A DNA stretch of 57,037 nucleotides, taken from assembly GCA_947624775.1 (NCBI GenBank), contig CANQLT010000003.1:1-57037 (forward strand), in the 5' to 3' direction. Positions within the stretch are counted from its first letter, which is position 1. The number at the start of each line of letters is the position of its first letter. This DNA comes from an uncultured Monoglobus sp. Lineage in GTDB: Bacteria > Bacillota > Clostridia > Monoglobales > Monoglobaceae. The notes under the pieces were generated by a model, which saw only the letters and a list, made by a program, of their open reading frames with translations, searched no databases and was not told the origin of the DNA. Positions 48,606 to 57,037 of the stretch are shown one piece after another. The position numbers were made by a program, and so were the translations under genes.

Positions 48606-48634
48606 TTGAAAAATGGATAAAAATCTGGTATAAT
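48606..48634 (+). promoter_or_regulatory. Promoter of the giant surface protein
   Basis: TTGAAA (48606-48611), 17-bp spacer, TATAAT (48629-48634). It gives a leader of about 220 nt that includes a GC-rich hairpin (CCCTCCCGA/TCGGGGGGG, 48671-48698) and a repeat element. Confidence 0.7.
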
Positions 48635-48719
48635 TTACTATAATTAAAGCATTTTTTATGCCTGTATTCACCCCTCCCGAAAACTAATCGGGGGGGGGTG
48701 ATACGCATATTTAGATGAA

Positions 48720-48815
48720 ATTTCGCCGTCAGCAGACGGGCGGAACCGACTGAGGGGGAGAGGCCCCTACCACCGCAAGCGGTCCCCCTCCCCCACTTGC
48801 GCAGGGGAGGCAAAA
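48720..48815. repeat. Intergenic GC-rich palindromic repeat (REP/MITE-like)
   Basis: A GC-rich block unlike the AT-rich flanks, with the words CGTCAGCAGACGGG, ACTGAGGGGGAG and CCGCAAGCGG. GGGGGAG can pair with CTCCCCC around CCGC/GCGG to give a long hairpin. Related words recur inside the adjacent gene (48966-49140). The intervening sequence of 48440-48540 is AT-rich with no gene. Confidence 0.5.
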
Positions 48816-48860
48816 TTGTTAATTAATAATCACCAAATAAATATATAAGGAGAGTTTACT

Positions 48861-51800
48861 ATGATGAAAAAATTAAATCAAACTTTGGCCGTATTGCTGG
48901 CTGTTGTTATGGTGCTGGGCACTTTGCCGGGCATCGCGGTTTTCGCGGCCTCCGATTCAGGCACCGGCCTGACTGAGGGAGGCCCCACCTCCGACGGACT
49001 TGCGTCCGCCACATCCTCCCAAGAGGAGGCAAATGTGGGAGGCGCCCCTTCGGGGGAGCTGTCAGGCGTCAGCCTGACTGAGGGGGGATCCGCCTCCGAC
49101 GAGGAGGCGGATTCGGACGCCAGCGCCGCGCCCGGCGAGGATAACGGCTATCAGCCTCTTTTGATACAGTGGCTTGATGGCAACCCTGATGCTCATGATG
49201 ATGCTCGAGTGGATCAAAGGCTTGCCCCTTATCTTGAGGTTGAGGGAAATCCCGCCACTAAAGAAGCGCGCATAGTCCGTTTCACATATTCGTCGACGAG
49301 CAGAATGACGGATATTCTCATACCCGCAACGATCCAGGCGACCGACCTTAACGGCGAAAATTCAAATGAATACAGTATCACCGAGATATGCGACGACGCT
49401 TTTTCGGGCTCGAATCTTAAAAACGTTACGTTTGCTACGTATTATAAAAATGAAAGTAGAACTGAATATAGGATCAAGAAAATAGGCGCTAACGCCTTTG
49501 CCTCGAACAACTTGGAGAAGATCGAAAATTGGCCCTCCACCATTGAGACGATATCCGACGGCTGTTTCCAGGGTAATTCTCTGCTCACGACCGTTGACTT
49601 AACGAGCATGGGAATAACGAGCATTCCCGACAATTGCTTCAGAAACTGTTCCGTTTTAACCGATGTGAATATCGGCAAAAGCACGACAGACACAAGCGGC
49701 GGCGTGTCGAAAATAACCTCATTGGGCGCGGGCGCCTTTGACGGCTGCAACTCTCTGGAATATATTTTCATTCCGGATACAGTTCACCAAATCGGCGAAA
49801 ACGCGTTTAACCTCAGCACAAGCACAAGTCTTGTTGTTGATATCGACAATTATCCGAAAAATGTTTGGGGAAATGACAACAAGGATCATCATAACTTCGC
49901 GCCTTGGGGCAATGTTTCGGGCTATATCAAATGGAAGTCGGACGGCACAGATCTTTCCGGCTATAACAATGATACGCCCTTTATCATAGACGACGAGGGT
50001 TATATCTGCGGACTTAAATACATCACAGGCGATGATAATAAATATAACGCAAATGATAATAATGCTTTAAGAAATCGGAATGATTTCAGATATTATCTGA
50101 AAAACGGCACTCATAATACATCCGCGCCGCGCGAGACTGAGACGGTAACCAAGTCAACCTGGGATTTTAACTCGCTTGACACTTCAAGCACTTTTGAAAA
50201 CGGCGGCACCATTGACGGCGTTAGGGAGAATGACGAAACATTTACGCCTCAACTGACAATATTGAAAGCATCAACCGGTGGCTCAAACGCAATTCAGACA
50301 GGATCCGGCGGTAATGGTAATTATTTAAACTTTAAAGACGGCGGCTCAGGTCAGGACGGATGGAGTTATGACCCCCAATTTAGCTCCGACAGTGAGGGAT
50401 TCACCGTTCAGGTCGATTTTATGATGCCAAGCGTGAAAAAAGAAAATATATTGCTCAGATTATGCGACACCGAGAATGTCAGCATCGCTAACACATACGG
50501 CGGCAGTGACGACGGCAGGTTCCTTGATATATATGCGACCGAAAGCAGCGATGGCACATCTTTGACATATAAAAATTATCTGACAGGCGATAGTAGCGAT
50601 AAGGCATACACAAATGTAATAAATAGCAGCATTAAAATAAAAAACGGTCAATGGTATACACTGAATTTGGAGTATACAAAAGAAAATAATAGTGTAAATG
50701 TAAAAATCACAGATCAAGATGGCAAAAATCCTCATTCGGGAAATTTCAATATGTTAAGTGGTGATAAAACAGACAAAAATAAGTCGATCACTCTTATGCC
50801 CACGGATATCAGATCGGTAACGGCGGGTTCGGCCAGTACGGAGATCAACTTTGACAACATTATTATTTCGAATTTTGTTTATAAGCCCGAGAACACCAAA
50901 TATACGCCGACAGCCGGCGACTACAGCTATTTCACGGTAAACGGCGGTACAATAAGTAATGTGAGTGACATAAAATCCGGCAGCCTTGAGATCAAAATCC
51001 CGAGCTATTATTATAAATTGGAGAGTAATGGCAACGTTCATTATGGTGACAGCATCAAGCCGGAGGCGATCAATGGAATAAGGGACGGAGCTTTTGGCTC
51101 ACAGCCGGCGGCGGACATTTTGAAATCGGTCGATTTTCTGTATCTGACCAATCCGAGTATAGATGGACATATGACTGAGATCCCCTATGGCGCTTTCTGG
51201 TACTGCGTGAATATGACGTCGGTCAAGAACATACCCGACACCGTGACGACGATCGGGGCAGACGCTTTCCGCCAGTGCCGAAATATAACAAGCATTGACC
51301 TCCCAAGCTCGATCAGGAATATCGGCGAACGGGCTTTCCGCGAGTGCAACGAACTCGCAACCGTTAGATTTGACCACAGCGCTTATGACGGCAAAAAAGC
51401 GGACGGAACAGATGACCCCGAAGAGCCTGTTATAAATTCCGCTGATGAATCGTCTTATACCGGTAATGGCGAGACTTTTGTAATAAAGCCCGACGCTTTT
51501 TCAAAATGCGTAAAGCTGACCGATATATATCTTGAGGGCATTTATCATGATGTCGGCAGAGGAGACGGAGTTACAGCCGGCGGCGGCGATAAGACCCTAA
51601 CAAGTCCGTTCGGCGCGTATTATGCCGATGTGCATTACAGAAATCATCTCGAATACGCGTACACGCTGCAGGCGGACACGCCCAATGATTACTGGTGGTT
51701 CAACCGCAATACCGGCGACGTGGTTTATTATACCGACCCGGATGTCACCGAAAGAACACGCCTCCAGATACCCCAGACGCTTACCGCCACAAGGGAAGGC

Positions 51801-54800
51801 GAGGTGTTCACCAAGACGATCGTCGGCGTCGCCCAGCAGGACGAAAACACCGAACTGCTCTCAAAGGTCGACAGCGCGGGCAACGGCGTTTTGAGTGACA
51901 GAAGTGATAAAAAAATATACAGCGTGACATTCCCCGATTCTGTTAAGTCGATCAACCATTCGGCGTTTCACGAAACGACCATCGGGATGGGCCGTGTCGA
52001 CCTCAACAAGGTGGAGAATATTAATTACAGAGCTTTCGGCAGCGCGGGGCTCACAAGTCTTACCCTGCCCGACACGATAAGGACAATAGGCTCGCTCGCG
52101 TTTGAAAAAAATCCATTTGGAAGTCAGGACAGCGCGGACCCCGAATTCGGCGGCAAAGGCGTTCTGGTTATTCCCGGCGATATCGAGAGCATAGAGAACA
52201 ACGCGTTTGACGGCAGCGCCACGGGTATTAGCAAGGTCGTTATCAAACAGTACCAATACAACACTTCCGACATGGGAGAGTGGGACGACGTACACAAATT
52301 TTATAAAAAAGCGCCCACGACCATTACCTCGACCGCGCCTTTCGGAATAGAGACACCCGGCTACACTCTTCGATATATGGACCAGGGACAGCTTATATAT
52401 TATGATTATCTTCTGAGCGGAAACACAATTCGTGTCCAGACAGGAAATGCGATCCCCGTCGCGGTAAAACCCGTTGTTGAAAACGGGGAGGTTAAAAACG
52501 AGGCTGTGATAAATCTCGGAGCGATCAACGCGGCGACTGAAAATCTGACTTACGCTACAAAGATTGATTATCTTGAAGTGTTTGGAGACGACGAAGATAC
52601 GGCAGCCGGAAAAGAACTCATCAATAACAACACAAACTGGTGGTATGATGCAGCAGGGTTTGAAAATAAAACCAATGCAGAAATGGAAGATCATGCCGGC
52701 AAACCGCATACGGTTGATTTAAACAATATTTACGGCAACGGCACGGTGACCTTTAAAGTAGAGTTCAACACCACTGAAGCAGGAGAAGAGGCGGCGGACA
52801 AAGTTGACTATCATACCATACCGATAAATGTGTTCCACCACGTTACGTATAACGCGAACGGCGGAGCGGGCTATGTGCCCGTTGAGGACGACGGCCACGA
52901 CAAAAACAATGCCGGTTACACGGACGCTGACAATAGTGGAACGCCCAACGCGGATACCGAAGAATTCATAGAGGGATATAATGTTCCGGTTATCGGCAAC
53001 AACGGCAACGGCGATTCGGAGCAAATTCTGACAAAGTCAAGAGCGGCGTTTGCGGGCTGGTACGCGCTGCCGAGCGGACAGGAAAAACCCGAATGGCTGT
53101 CGTACATTATCCCGTCCGAAGATTATATCGAAGATAAGGAAGGACATTTCTTCGATTATGCCGACCTCAAAGATACGCAGGAGGAAACAACAGCAAAGCT
53201 CACAATGGGCGATTCCGACGTGACGCTCTACGCGATATGGGGCGTGGACGACAACGGCAACGGCATTCCCGACTATGACGACGCGATCGTTCGTTATCAC
53301 ATGAACGGCGGCACCTGGACAGACAAAGGAACCACATATAACGACATAAACTTTTATAGAGAAAGAGGAGCCAGAACCGAGAATTATGCTCTCAGCGAAT
53401 CTTTGGTAAAGCCCGACAGAGCTCCTGTTAATTTCCTTGAAAAATATCCCGATTCCGGTGAGCCCGACAAGGAGATACATTTCGCGCAGATGGGCTGGGC
53501 GACCAAAGCGTTTGAGGGCTACGCCGACAGCGACGGACATTTTCATCACATAGGAAGCGACAATCCCGAAGAAGAACCGGCGACGTTTATTGTGCACAGC
53601 TTGGACACGAGCGTTGTGAACAAGTATGGGCAGAGCGATAATGCCGGAAAATATGAGTATGATGTTTACGCGACCTGGGCCGAGGACGACGAGCCTAACG
53701 ACGGAATTCCCGACGCGATGCAGGTTATTTACAACGAAAATCTGCCGCGGGCGGTTGTTGACGCGAACAGCGCGGATACAGACGCAAGCAACGATACACA
53801 CGCGAATTATATCCCGTTTGACAGCCACGCCTACACCAGCATGACCGATTTCCAGGGAGTATCTATCATGCCTACAGATAAATCGGTAAGGCTGCCCGAG
53901 CTTGAAGGATATGTATTCAGAGGCTGGAGCACGGACCCGAATTATGACCCCACACAGACCTCTGCGGAAGAAGCGGATAAACCGAACGATAAGCCGGCGG
54001 ACGGAACCAATGAATATGTGAATGAATATTTTGCCAATTCCGGCGTATTGTATCTGCCCGAGTCGCTCAAAGACGATACCAACGGCGCGCGGACATGGTT
54101 CACCAAAAAGCCGGGTCTCACCAGGCTCTACGCTGTATGGGAGCGCGCGTCCTACGGAGTTAAGTATAACGAGAACGGCGGCAGCATCGAACTGCCCGAG
54201 GATAATAACACATACTCGCTCGGCGACGATGTTCCTCTGCTCTATACTCCCGCGCCCAGGCACGAAGGCGCTCTGTTCCTCGGCTGGACGCGCAACAAGC
54301 CTTTCCTGAGCGTAACGTCTCAGGCTGAGCTTGACGAAAGAATAAAAGATGAGACAAATCCGCTGTATCTTGAGAAAGCAGACGCGATCAGCGGCTACCC
54401 GGCCGCGACAACCGCAGAAATGGCGCTCGAGGAAAACAGCACGGTCATGAACCTTTACGCGGCGTGGACGATCGACCGCTACGGCGGAAACAGAGCCGGC
54501 AATCAGACGGGCGACAGCATACCCGACTACTATCAGGTAATCTATGACGCCAACGCCGGAGCGGACACGGTTGTCGGAGAACTGCCGCAGGACGATACGT
54601 TATATAACAGCGGCGACGAAGTTAAGGTTCAGCCGGGCGACATCACCAGAGAGGGTCATATCTTTAAGGGCTGGAGCCTCAACACACCCGACGGCAGCGG
54701 AACAAACGAATCGGGAAATCTGTACGGCAGCGAACCCGATAACACCTTCAAAAAGACCGAGAGAGCCGATATTCTCTACGCGGTTTGGGAGCCCCTGACC

Positions 54801-57037
54801 CCGACCTATGACGTTATATATGTCGACAACGGCGCGACCGAGGGTCAAGTGCCGATAGAGGGCAAAATGTATGAGGACGGCGAGGACGTTATTGTAAAGA
54901 ATAATATCAAGGGCGGCTCGACCGAGGACGGCAGCGGCAATATCGCGAGAGAGGGACACATATTCCTCGGCTGGAGCGTCAACGAGGAGCTGCCGCCGAT
55001 AACGAGCCGCAGCGCGGCAGCCGCGGCGAATATCGTAACGGCGGGTCAAACCATACAGATGACGCGCCCGGAAAACAGCAGTATTATGGCGCTGTGCGCG
55101 GTATGGGCGGTTGATTCTAACCAAGACGGCATAGCCGATTATAATCAGATAATATACCTCCCCGGCAGAGCGGGCAGCAGTGCCAAGTGGCCCGCCGGAT
55201 CGGCGGCGACGGAGTTCCCCTACGCGCAGGGCATCAAAGCCGAGGGCAACTCGGTAATAGCCGACAAGCCCGAATGGAACGCGGACCGCAGCTTTATCAA
55301 CTGGAAGGTGAGCGAGGGCGACACATTCTACGAGCCCGGCGCATCCATTACCGGCGACCTGGACGGCGGCCTGATACTCGAGGCGCAATGGAGCAATATT
55401 GATTTCGGCGTGACTTACGACCCGAACACGTCCGAGGGAGAATACAGCGGCACCGTTCCGCAGGACCCGGAGCGCTACGAGAGAGACAGCGTAGCCAAAG
55501 CGCTGCCTGTCGGAGATCTTGAGCGAGACGGCGCGGTATTCCTCGGCTGGAGCAAAAAGAACGCTCTGACGCAGGAGGCCGACGGAGTTGATCTCGAAAT
55601 CAATCAAGCCGTGACAAAATTCGCGCAGGTAAATAAGCTCGATATTATCCCGCCCGACGGCGCGATAGAAATTACCGGAGACGTCACCCTGTACGCGGTT
55701 TGGGCTGTTGACAAAAGAGACGGCGCCGAGGCAGGCGGCGGAACAGCCGGAGACGGCATCGCGGACTTTATGCAGGTATTCTATGACCCGGGCCTCGCGG
55801 TAGACCTCGGCGACAAGGTGCCGACCGATGTGACTCCTTATGACAAAAACAGCGAGATCACAGTCAAGAATGTGGGCGACGACTTCATATGGGAGGGCTA
55901 CGCCTTCCAGGGCTGGAGCCTTGAAGTGCAGACCCAAGATCAGGCAGACGGAGCCGAGGGCGCCGGCGAGCATATAACGCTCTCACCCGGAGATGTGTTC
56001 AAAATGGACGACGCGATCAGAATCGTCGGACATGATCACCTGCACCCCAACGAAAACGGCGTGACGCTGTACGCGGTATGGGCAAAGAACGCAATCTACA
56101 AGCTGAATTATGACTTAAACGACGCTAATGACGCGGCGGCCGAGTCTCAAAAGCATACCGACAGCAGAACATTCTCTACAGGCAGAATACTCACTCTTGC
56201 GGATGATATTGATTATTCGGGATGGAACCTGACCGAGAGGAAACCCGAAAACGCGGCGTTCGCGGGCTGGATCGCAAAGAATGACGGCAACAGCGCCGTT
56301 ATTCAAAAGATACAACAGGACGGCAAGCCGATCGTGCTGAGCGAAATAACAAGCGGCATCGTTTCGGCGATGGCACACATGGTTCGCTTCGACACAAGCG
56401 ATATTGACGTGATCGCCGTCTGGGCCGGAGACTACTTTGACCCCAACAGGCCCGACACGGATCAAGCGCCCGACAATGTGCCGGACGCGTACCAGGTGGA
56501 TTACAGCACGAACGCGGATAATTATGACTTTAGCGACGCGGACGTTGCGGGAATACCCAACGACACCGCCACATATACCATGGGCGACACCGTGTATGTC
56601 GAGGGCCTGAATCCTCCGACGGTCAGCGGCTATGAATTCCTGGGCTGGAGCCTGAACAATCCCGATGGCACAGGCGTAAATCCGGCGACGAACGAGCTTT
56701 ACCGCTCGGGCGAAACATTTGAAAAGAGCGGCAGACTTGATATGCTTTACGCTATATGGCAGAAGGCGGCAGTGCCGAGCGCGGAGCCTACGAATGAGCC
56801 CATAATAGAGCCGACGAGCGCTCCCACAAATGTGCCTACCGAATTACCCACGCTTGCGCCCACTGCTGAGCCTACAGAGGAGCCGAGCGCAGAGCCCACA
56901 GAGGAGCCTACGGAGGAACCGAGCGCAGAGCCCACAGAGGAGCCTACGGAGGAACCGAGCGCAGAGCCCACAGAAGAACCCACGCTTGCGCCCGCGACCG
57001 AAGCGCCCACGAGTGAGCCGACCGAGGCACCCGCAAC
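48861..57037 (+). CDS. Giant secreted surface protein with LRR_5, lectin-like and InlB_B repeats (3' partial)
   Basis: Open from ATG 48861 (AAGGAGA six bases upstream) to the window end, 2725 codons without a stop. Signal peptide (residues 1-30, ending VFAA). Residues 31-96 are a low-complexity linker from a repeat element. BspA-like leucine-rich repeats (LRR_5) cover about 120-340. A beta-rich, lamin-G-like or carbohydrate-binding domain follows (about 434-680). A second LRR_5 block covers about 730-1130. Then eleven InlB_B/Listeria-Bacteroides repeats, each ending LYAxW or similar (1325-2632). Between many of them lie D-x-N-x-D/N-G-I-P-D linkers resembling calcium-binding TSP3 motifs. Last comes a Pro/Thr/Glu/Ser tail. 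An adhesin is inferred. A wall anchor should lie beyond the window. Confidence 0.85.
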   Translation, partial: MMKKLNQTLAVLLAVVMVLGTLPGIAVFAASDSGTGLTEGGPTSDGLASATSSQEEANVGGAPSGELSGVSLTEGGSASDEEADSDASAAPGEDNGYQPLLIQWLDGNPDAHDDARVDQRLAPYLEVEGNPATKEARIVRFTYSSTSRMTDILIPATIQATDLNGENSNEYSITEICDDAFSGSNLKNVTFATYYKNESRTEYRIKKIGANAFASNNLEKIENWPSTIETISDGCFQGNSLLTTVDLTSMGITSIPDNCFRNCSVLTDVNIGKSTTDTSGGVSKITSLGAGAFDGCNSLEYIFIPDTVHQIGENAFNLSTSTSLVVDIDNYPKNVWGNDNKDHHNFAPWGNVSGYIKWKSDGTDLSGYNNDTPFIIDDEGYICGLKYITGDDNKYNANDNNALRNRNDFRYYLKNGTHNTSAPRETETVTKSTWDFNSLDTSSTFENGGTIDGVRENDETFTPQLTILKASTGGSNAIQTGSGGNGNYLNFKDGGSGQDGWSYDPQFSSDSEGFTVQVDFMMPSVKKENILLRLCDTENVSIANTYGGSDDGRFLDIYATESSDGTSLTYKNYLTGDSSDKAYTNVINSSIKIKNGQWYTLNLEYTKENNSVNVKITDQDGKNPHSGNFNMLSGDKTDKNKSITLMPTDIRSVTAGSASTEINFDNIIISNFVYKPENTKYTPTAGDYSYFTVNGGTISNVSDIKSGSLEIKIPSYYYKLESNGNVHYGDSIKPEAINGIRDGAFGSQPAADILKSVDFLYLTNPSIDGHMTEIPYGAFWYCVNMTSVKNIPDTVTTIGADAFRQCRNITSIDLPSSIRNIGERAFRECNELATVRFDHSAYDGKKADGTDDPEEPVINSADESSYTGNGETFVIKPDAFSKCVKLTDIYLEGIYHDVGRGDGVTAGGGDKTLTSPFGAYYADVHYRNHLEYAYTLQADTPNDYWWFNRNTGDVVYYTDPDVTERTRLQIPQTLTATREGEVFTKTIVGVAQQDENTELLSKVDSAGNGVLSDRSDKKIYSVTFPDSVKSINHSAFHETTIGMGRVDLNKVENINYRAFGSAGLTSLTLPDTIRTIGSLAFEKNPFGSQDSADPEFGGKGVLVIPGDIESIENNAFDGSATGISKVVIKQYQYNTSDMGEWDDVHKFYKKAPTTITSTAPFGIETPGYTLRYMDQGQLIYYDYLLSGNTIRVQTGNAIPVAVKPVVENGEVKNEAVINLGAINAATENLTYATKIDYLEVFGDDEDTAAGKELINNNTNWWYDAAGFENKTNAEMEDHAGKPHTVDLNNIYGNGTVTFKVEFNTTEAGEEAADKVDYHTIPINVFHHVTYNANGGAGYVPVEDDGHDKNNAGYTDADNSGTPNADTEEFIEGYNVPVIGNNGNGDSEQILTKSRAAFAGWYALPSGQEKPEWLSYIIPSEDYIEDKEGHFFDYADLKDTQEETTAKLTMGDSDVTLYAIWGVDDNGNGIPDYDDAIVRYHMNGGTWTDKGTTYNDINFYRERGARTENYALSESLVKPDRAPVNFLEKYPDSGEPDKEIHFAQMGWATKAFEGYADSDGHFHHIGSDNPEEEPATFIVHSLDTSVVNKYGQSDNAGKYEYDVYATWAEDDEPNDGIPDAMQVIYNENLPRAVVDANSADTDASNDTHANYIPFDSHAYTSMTDFQGVSIMPTDKSVRLPELEGYVFRGWSTDPNYDPTQTSAEEADKPNDKPADGTNEYVNEYFANSGVLYLPESLKDDTNGARTWFTKKPGLTRLYAVWERASYGVKYNENGGSIELPEDNNTYSLGDDVPLLYTPAPRHEGALFLGWTRNKPFLSVTSQAELDERIKDETNPLYLEKADAISGYPAATTAEMALEENSTVMNLYAAWTIDRYGGNRAGNQTGDSIPDYYQVIYDANAGADTVVGELPQDDTLYNSGDEVKVQPGDITREGHIFKGWSLNTPDGSGTNESGNLYGSEPDNTFKKTERADILYAVWEPLTPTYDVIYVDNGATEGQVPIEGKMYEDGEDVIVKNNIKGGSTEDGSGNIAREGHIFLGWSVNEELPPITSRSAAAAANIVTAGQTIQMTRPENSSIMALCAVWAVDSNQDGIADYNQIIYLPGRAGSSAKWPAGSAATEFPYAQGIKAEGNSVIADKPEWNADRSFINWKVSEGDTFYEPGASITGDLDGGLILEAQWSNIDFGVTYDPNTSEGEYSGTVPQDPERYERDSVAKALPVGDLERDGAVFLGWSKKNALTQEADGVDLEINQAVTKFAQVNKLDIIPPDGAIEITGDVTLYAVWAVDKRDGAEAGGGTAGDGIADFMQVFYDPGLAVDLGDKVPTDVTPYDKNSEITVKNVGDDFIWEGYAFQGWSLEVQTQDQADGAEGAGEHITLSPGDVFKMDDAIRIVGHDHLHPNENGVTLYAVWAKNAIYKLNYDLNDANDAAAESQKHTDSRTFSTGRILTLADDIDYSGWNLTERKPENAAFAGWIAKNDGNSAVIQKIQQDGKPIVLSEITSGIVSAMAHMVRFDTSDIDVIAVWAGDYFDPNRPDTDQAPDNVPDAYQVDYSTNADNYDFSDADVAGIPNDTATYTMGDTVYVEGLNPPTVSGYEFLGWSLNNPDGTGVNPATNELYRSGETFEKSGRLDMLYAIWQKAAVPSAEPTNEPIIEPTSAPTNVPTELPTLAPTAEPTEEPSAEPTEEPTEEPSAEPTEEPTEEPSAEPTEEPTLAPATEAPTSEPTEAPA
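48966..49140. repeat. Repeat element inside the coding sequence of the surface protein
   Basis: CTGACTGAGGG occurs twice (about 48970 and 49074). Between the copies lie GGAC/GTCC, CCTCC/GGAGG, CGCCCC/GGGG and GTCAGGC/GCCTGAC hairpins. Words match the intergenic repeat 150 bp upstream. The reading frame stays open and it is translated as a Gly/Ser/Glu/Ala-rich spacer. Confidence 0.6.
52836..56756 (+). repeat. Array of eleven InlB_B-type repeat units
   Basis: Units end near 53240, 53670, 54135, 54465, 54790, 55110, 55395, 55710, 56085, 56430 and 56760, each with a G-W-S/T core (FLGWS, FKGWS, FRGWS, FAGW) and a closing YAxW-like word. The DNA copies are diverged, so this is an old duplication rather than a recent expansion. 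Confidence 0.8.
56805..57030 (+). repeat. Short tandem repeat encoding a Pro/Thr/Glu/Ser tail
   Basis: Iterations of about 30-33 bp (GAGGAGCCTACGGAGGAACC-type) between 56875 and 56980, with nearly identical copies, encode TEEPSAEPTEEPTEEPSAEP. Such homogeneous repeats change in length easily. They form the usual cell-wall spanning stalk. Confidence 0.75.

Follow-up and report, generated by a model that had tools for sequence, protein, structure and literature searches.

The window, a stretch of 57,037 bp that represents contig C3 of the draft genome G000 of an uncultured Monoglobus species, ends within the gene for a giant surface protein. Its signal peptide is followed by a linker, BspA-type leucine-rich repeats (LRRs), Listeria-Bacteroides repeats and a PT-rich C-terminal stretch, with Pfam matches to LRR_5 (2.6e-50), Flg_new (6.4e-25) and PT (2.2e-12). 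With one exception, all genus members used for comparison are draft assemblies. The following features were annotated:

48606..48634, forward strand: sigma-70-like promoter of the giant gene, TTGAAA-17-TATAAT, a consensus match only (11 of 12 positions)
48668..48701, forward strand: hairpin TCACCCCTCCC..GGGGGGGGTGA in the 5′ leader, an inverted repeat outside the repeat family
48741..48814, forward strand: leader repeat, consisting of the tail of module A (GACTGAGGGGG) and module B (CCCCTACCACCGCAAGCGGTCCCCCTCCCCCAC..GCAGGGGAGGCAAA), with dozens of genomic copies
48861..57035, forward strand: ORF of the giant surface protein, 2725 residues up to the contig end, where it is still open
48861..48950, forward strand: signal peptide, residues 1-30, conserved among the giant homologues of the genus
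48968..49100, forward strand: repeat-derived linker, residues 36-80, a mosaic of A-tail, C, A and the start of a C-like unit
48985..49033, forward strand: module C in frame, CCCACCTCCGACGGACTTGCGTCCGCCACATCCTCCCAAGAGGAGGCAAA = PTSDGLASATSSQEEAN, with intergenic module C copies on contigs C176, C129, C34, C41 and others
49041..49089, forward strand: module A in frame, GGCGCCCCTTCGGGGGAGCTGTCAGGCGTCAGCCTGACTGAGGGGGGA = GAPSGELSGVSLTEGG, an exact core match, with the same in-frame copy in G005
49088..49112, forward strand: perfect 10-bp inverted repeat ATCCGCCTCC-GACGA-GGAGGCGGAT, of which other copies cover the first part only; possibly a truncated C-like unit

The giant gene is cut by the contig end in the window. 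Giant homologues in other genomes have ORFs of about 10,600 codons (L042 on G010:C2), 10,200 codons (L043 on G007:C3), 8,800 codons (L041 on G003:C7) and 7,800 codons (L040 on G002:C4), which places them among the longest bacterial ORFs.

The leader is a combination of a conserved and a variable part. Its GC-rich hairpin (48668-48701) is kept upstream of the giant-gene orthologues in G005, G013, G002 and G006 and is a possible cis-regulatory element; it has no Rfam match near the gathering score. The adjoining repeat slot, located between this hairpin and the ribosome-binding site, is not conserved and differs in sequence in each species. In the window it carries the leader repeat, which is 91% identical over 74 bp to another genomic copy, whereas a different module is found in G005 and almost nothing in G013.

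When copies from the genome were compared side by side, three of the modules could be described: module A as GGCTCCCC..GGGGAGCTGTC-stem-GACTGAGGGGG, module B as CCCCTTCCACCGC..GCGGTCCCCCTCCCCCAC..GCAGGGGAGGCAAA and module C as CCCACCTCCG..stem..CCACCTCCTCCCGGGAGGAGGCAAA. Together with others they are chained in mosaics. The original prediction had placed one GC-rich repeat family in both the leader and the ORF, and both places do hold members of it, but not the same ones: the leader has the A-tail plus B, while the ORF has the A-tail, C, A and a C-like start. That there are other copies in the genome, as it requires, was borne out by 44 matches with the linker DNA as query, 52 matches with the leader DNA, and 49 exact module A cores (25 forward and 24 reverse), nearly all of them intergenic, as against none for a reversed-pattern control of the core.

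Module A cores are also numerous in G005 (63), G004 (47) and G011 (40), and G009, a member of the genus assembled as one contig, has none. At least one core was found in 24 of the 291 Clostridia genomes sampled. In Rfam, the best matches of the repeat family are far below the gathering scores, and a 44-base module A query found no match among plasmids. In a viral collection, the module A core was seen in 48 stretches (L266-L313), many of them with 65-74% G+C, and these matches suggest that the module A hairpin unit exists far outside the Clostridia. In many copies (L079, L088, L090, L251 and others), the module A hairpin houses an additional unit, ATAATCAGCAAGCTTGCTTGCGGGTTCAAAGC..GACCAAGAGCTTCCTTGATGCTG, as if these hairpins were insertion targets, and many copies are followed by arrays of 7-bp units (CTAATCA, CTATTCG). 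In the open-access literature, nothing relevant on repeats in Monoglobus or Faecalibacterium was found.

The stem of module A is variable. Dozens of different stem sequences covary, changing on both sides together with complementarity kept, and pairing is complete in 46 of the 52 distinct stems, whereas 2000 within-length shuffles gave 24 on average and never more than 34, although such shuffles can also be outdone by related sequences in the absence of selection. The copy in the giant gene has an intact GTCAGGC/GCCTGAC stem. The original prediction had described stem-type words in both places. As RNA, only the coding segment folds better than shuffles (better than all 200, z -3.8), and the leader segment is unremarkable (z -0.5). 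Template switching has been reported to create and maintain perfect hairpins (PMC8794818) and is a candidate source of the stem variation.

The best match of the linker DNA outside the gene is intergenic (G000:C176; 79% identity over 104 bp, E=7.6e-17). Per-base coverage by copies outside giant genes is zero up to residue 33, lies at 40-121 over residues 41-76 and is zero again from residue 81, and 15 control segments of the window all had zero coverage by repeat copies. From these sharp edges and the empty controls, about 45 residues of the linker are repeat-derived. The linker had originally been taken to comprise residues 31-96; its frame is indeed open and directly adjoins the signal peptide, but the repeat-derived part is shorter (residues 36-80). 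The conserved signal peptide that precedes it argues for a linker that is truly coding rather than located upstream of a later start. In an AlphaFold2 model, the linker has a pLDDT of about 30 and the neighbouring LRR blocks have values near 90, so that it is predicted to be a disordered spacer.

Orthologues of the giant protein were compared at the linker position. In G013, which belongs to another genus of the family, the orthologue is 80% identical and all linker modules are absent: the signal peptide leads via EEPGADAGGESATEEGD to the conserved GYQPLL motif. The G005 orthologue (85% identical) has module A alone. Identities to these orthologues, without modules or with one only, range from about 80 to 88%. 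Since the module A copy of G005 is the one also seen in G000, the two linkers differ in C plus the A-tail only. At the same position, other giant homologues have C only (G003), A followed by C (G010), or a duplicated C with other modules (G004), and a paralogue on contig C35 of the own genome is without such a linker. It is evident from this comparison that conservation of the signal peptide and the mature protein does not extend to the slot, where modules turn over between flanks that are retained.

In G004 (contig C16, L039), the linker contains a tandem duplication of a 38-residue repeat-derived unit. A non-coding copy in the leader of that gene is very similar to the coding copy, which hints at an exchange between leader and coding region.

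A second gene, on contig C30, codes for a 645-residue DUF927/Cch-type ATPase (PF06048, 2.5e-26; PF18662, 3.2e-10) and holds two chains of modules B and A that are in frame but in the opposite orientation. Its orthologues in G011, G004 and G002 are 82-85% identical over the whole protein and carry other in-frame mosaics at both sites, the second site of G011 starting like that of G000 and then departing from it. Short sequences or nothing are found at these sites in the G006 protein (66% identical) and in the distant proteins from G028 and G035. The AlphaFold2 model of the ATPase is poor overall, and the inserts are among its lowest-confidence parts. These mosaics make it clear that the surface protein is no isolated case. 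Judged from the open frames, modules are read through in two gene families, each with orthologues that are empty and others with species-specific content.

Nevertheless, coding insertions are rare. Among 144 distinct module A cores with flanks, collected from several Monoglobus genomes, internal coding cases are limited to the giant LRR and DUF927 families, and all other overlaps are explained by gene ends or by ORFs that are spurious. Apparent ORF-internal copies in L053, L055, L076, L095, L163, L165, L169 and L178 were rejected as spurious, mainly due to an antisense ORF, a repeat-rich stretch, or a true start after the repeat. In one gene-end case (L222 on G011:C63), a tadA-like gene runs into a reversed module A, which provides the C-terminal last residues and the stop codon.

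At orthologous intergenic sites of two species, the flanks are mostly about 90-97% identical while the mosaics between them are different: turnover is fast. No clean empty site with a target-site duplication, as would be expected of a MITE with its terminal inverted repeats, was found, since the counterparts in other species hold different mosaics and leave the element ends undefined. Insertion itself, as opposed to exchange among slots occupied by repeats beforehand, is what we infer.

Taken together, dispersed intergenic hairpin modules very probably end up in frame in genes, where they are read as surplus peptide. The original prediction that an intergenic repeat entered a coding region and was kept there as a spacer agrees with the many genomic copies, with the orthologues that are without the residues in question (all of them in G013, all but module A in G005), and with the independent DUF927 case. 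In the explanation that we favour, short GC-rich hairpin modules (A, B, C and others) are scattered in mosaic form over the intergenic regions of Monoglobus species, with a fast turnover that is evident from orthologous sites, and now and then one of them, or a chain, comes to lie within a gene. Owing to their high GC content, most copies are without a stop codon in most frames (depending on the frame, 18-34 of 39 for A, 6-8 of 8 for C and 4-13 of 13 for B), and the main requirement for in-frame fusion is that the length can be divided by three; such inserts are read through in the two gene families. They would persist where the peptide falls between folded parts, namely after the signal peptide of giant LRR proteins and at the two DUF927 sites. 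As the orthologues show, modules at such a slot are then added, lost, duplicated and exchanged between species within conserved flanks. Movement would follow a route other than RAYT, which may involve a transposase acting in trans, hairpin-driven template switching, or gene conversion.

We infer that the linker is mostly tolerated, and it is possibly of secondary use for length and reach from the cell surface. A stronger version would be that selection keeps a long, variable, disordered spacer, with the intergenic pool as raw material for length variation of surface proteins. We regard such co-option as conceivable but rather unlikely. Repeat-derived linkers of differing composition and length are found at the same place in giant homologues of three sub-groups, and the tandem duplication in the G004 linker points in the same direction. 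However, the linker is not required, given the G013 orthologue and the C35 paralogue, and the DUF927 sites behave alike although that protein has no signal peptide, as would be expected if the inserts are simply tolerated. It is likewise doubtful that the slots in the giant protein and in the DUF927 protein are recombination-prone and repeatedly draft the intergenic hairpin pool into protein by a RAYT-free route, thus yielding fast-changing surface spacers.

The original prediction had also raised the idea of a RAYT-type transposase, and the copies do resemble RAYT-mobilised REP/REPIN elements in being short, palindromic, of high copy number and mostly intergenic, and in occurring in BIME-like mosaics. 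However, the own genome lacks the RAYT domain PF01797, as do the copy-rich genomes G005, G011 and G004 and also G002 and G010, while control genomes were positive; the domain is confined to G003, with 4 A cores, and G007, with 2. Mobilisation by RAYT is therefore very improbable.

It is also very improbable that the linker began as an ancestral coding repeat of surface proteins and gave rise to the intergenic copies. The similarity between the non-coding C-type copy in the G004 leader and its coding counterpart would be compatible with this direction and makes it probable that leader and coding copies undergo local exchange. However, coding copies are far outnumbered by intergenic ones, which are present in many other genera of Clostridia and include module B, a module not seen in the giant gene, and copies are found in reverse orientation inside DUF927. 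An assembly artefact, with repeat contigs misjoined into the gene, can practically be dismissed: although many copies are located at contig ends in the own draft genome, open frames are kept in the independent assemblies G005, G004, G010, G003, G002 and G011, and among the 144 copies examined, G000 and G005 are the sole carriers of the stem TCAGGCGTCAGCCTGA, in both cases in this giant-gene ORF.

The capture of intergenic modules into proteins has its closest parallel in the Rickettsia palindromic elements (RPEs; Ogata et al. 2000, 2002), dispersed palindromic elements that occur between genes and in frame within them (PMC10969869, PMC2229807). As with RPEs, there are many intergenic palindromic copies, in-frame copies in unrelated protein genes that are read as surplus peptide, and orthologues without the insert. 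Rickettsia belongs to another phylum, though, and an RPE is a single element of about 105-150 bp, whereas the Monoglobus elements are mosaics of small modules which are swapped at the same slot between species; the comparison is one of described features.

Intragenic REPs of the GTAG and CGTC superfamilies form clusters that encode up to 82 residues, sometimes twice per gene (PMC3733652), and neither "Firmicutes" nor "Clostrid" occurs in the main text of that paper. These are likewise small palindromes, mostly intergenic and in part within ORFs of several bacteria. However, the constant part of module A contains neither GTAG nor CGTC, with the reservation that the module ends are not exactly defined, and the copy-rich Monoglobus genomes are without RAYT. 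The latter also distinguishes the modules from BIMEs, with which they share chains of different palindromic units in intergenic DNA; moreover, the units are different and coding insertions are present. Palindromic amphipathic repeat coding elements (PARCELs), with tandem amphipathic units of 25 residues (PMC2996958), are similar in that dispersed palindromic DNA encodes repeats of surface proteins, but the Monoglobus linker is hydrophilic, disordered and tandem only in G004, with no tandem array visible by eye in the window. The Caulobacter CIR was rejected, as the GANTC methylation motif is missing from the constant part of module A. By analogy, the elements would best be placed as a mosaic, RAYT-less form of in-frame repeat insertion that works like the Rickettsia RPEs. 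Compared to the open-access literature searched, the host group, the mosaic make-up and the swapping between species at fixed slots are new.

The best-documented examples of intergenic palindromes captured in frame as protein sequence come from Rickettsia; other examples are mostly proteobacterial, and a recent review considers a similar role in protein evolution elsewhere conceivable (PMC10969869). In Monoglobus, this capture is visible between close species, with different mosaics at the same site of the same gene and with empty orthologues. Gut Clostridia thus offer a setting in which it can be tested directly how repeat-born protein segments arise, turn over and are tolerated, and they prompt one to ask which activity moves hairpin modules when a genome has no RAYT.
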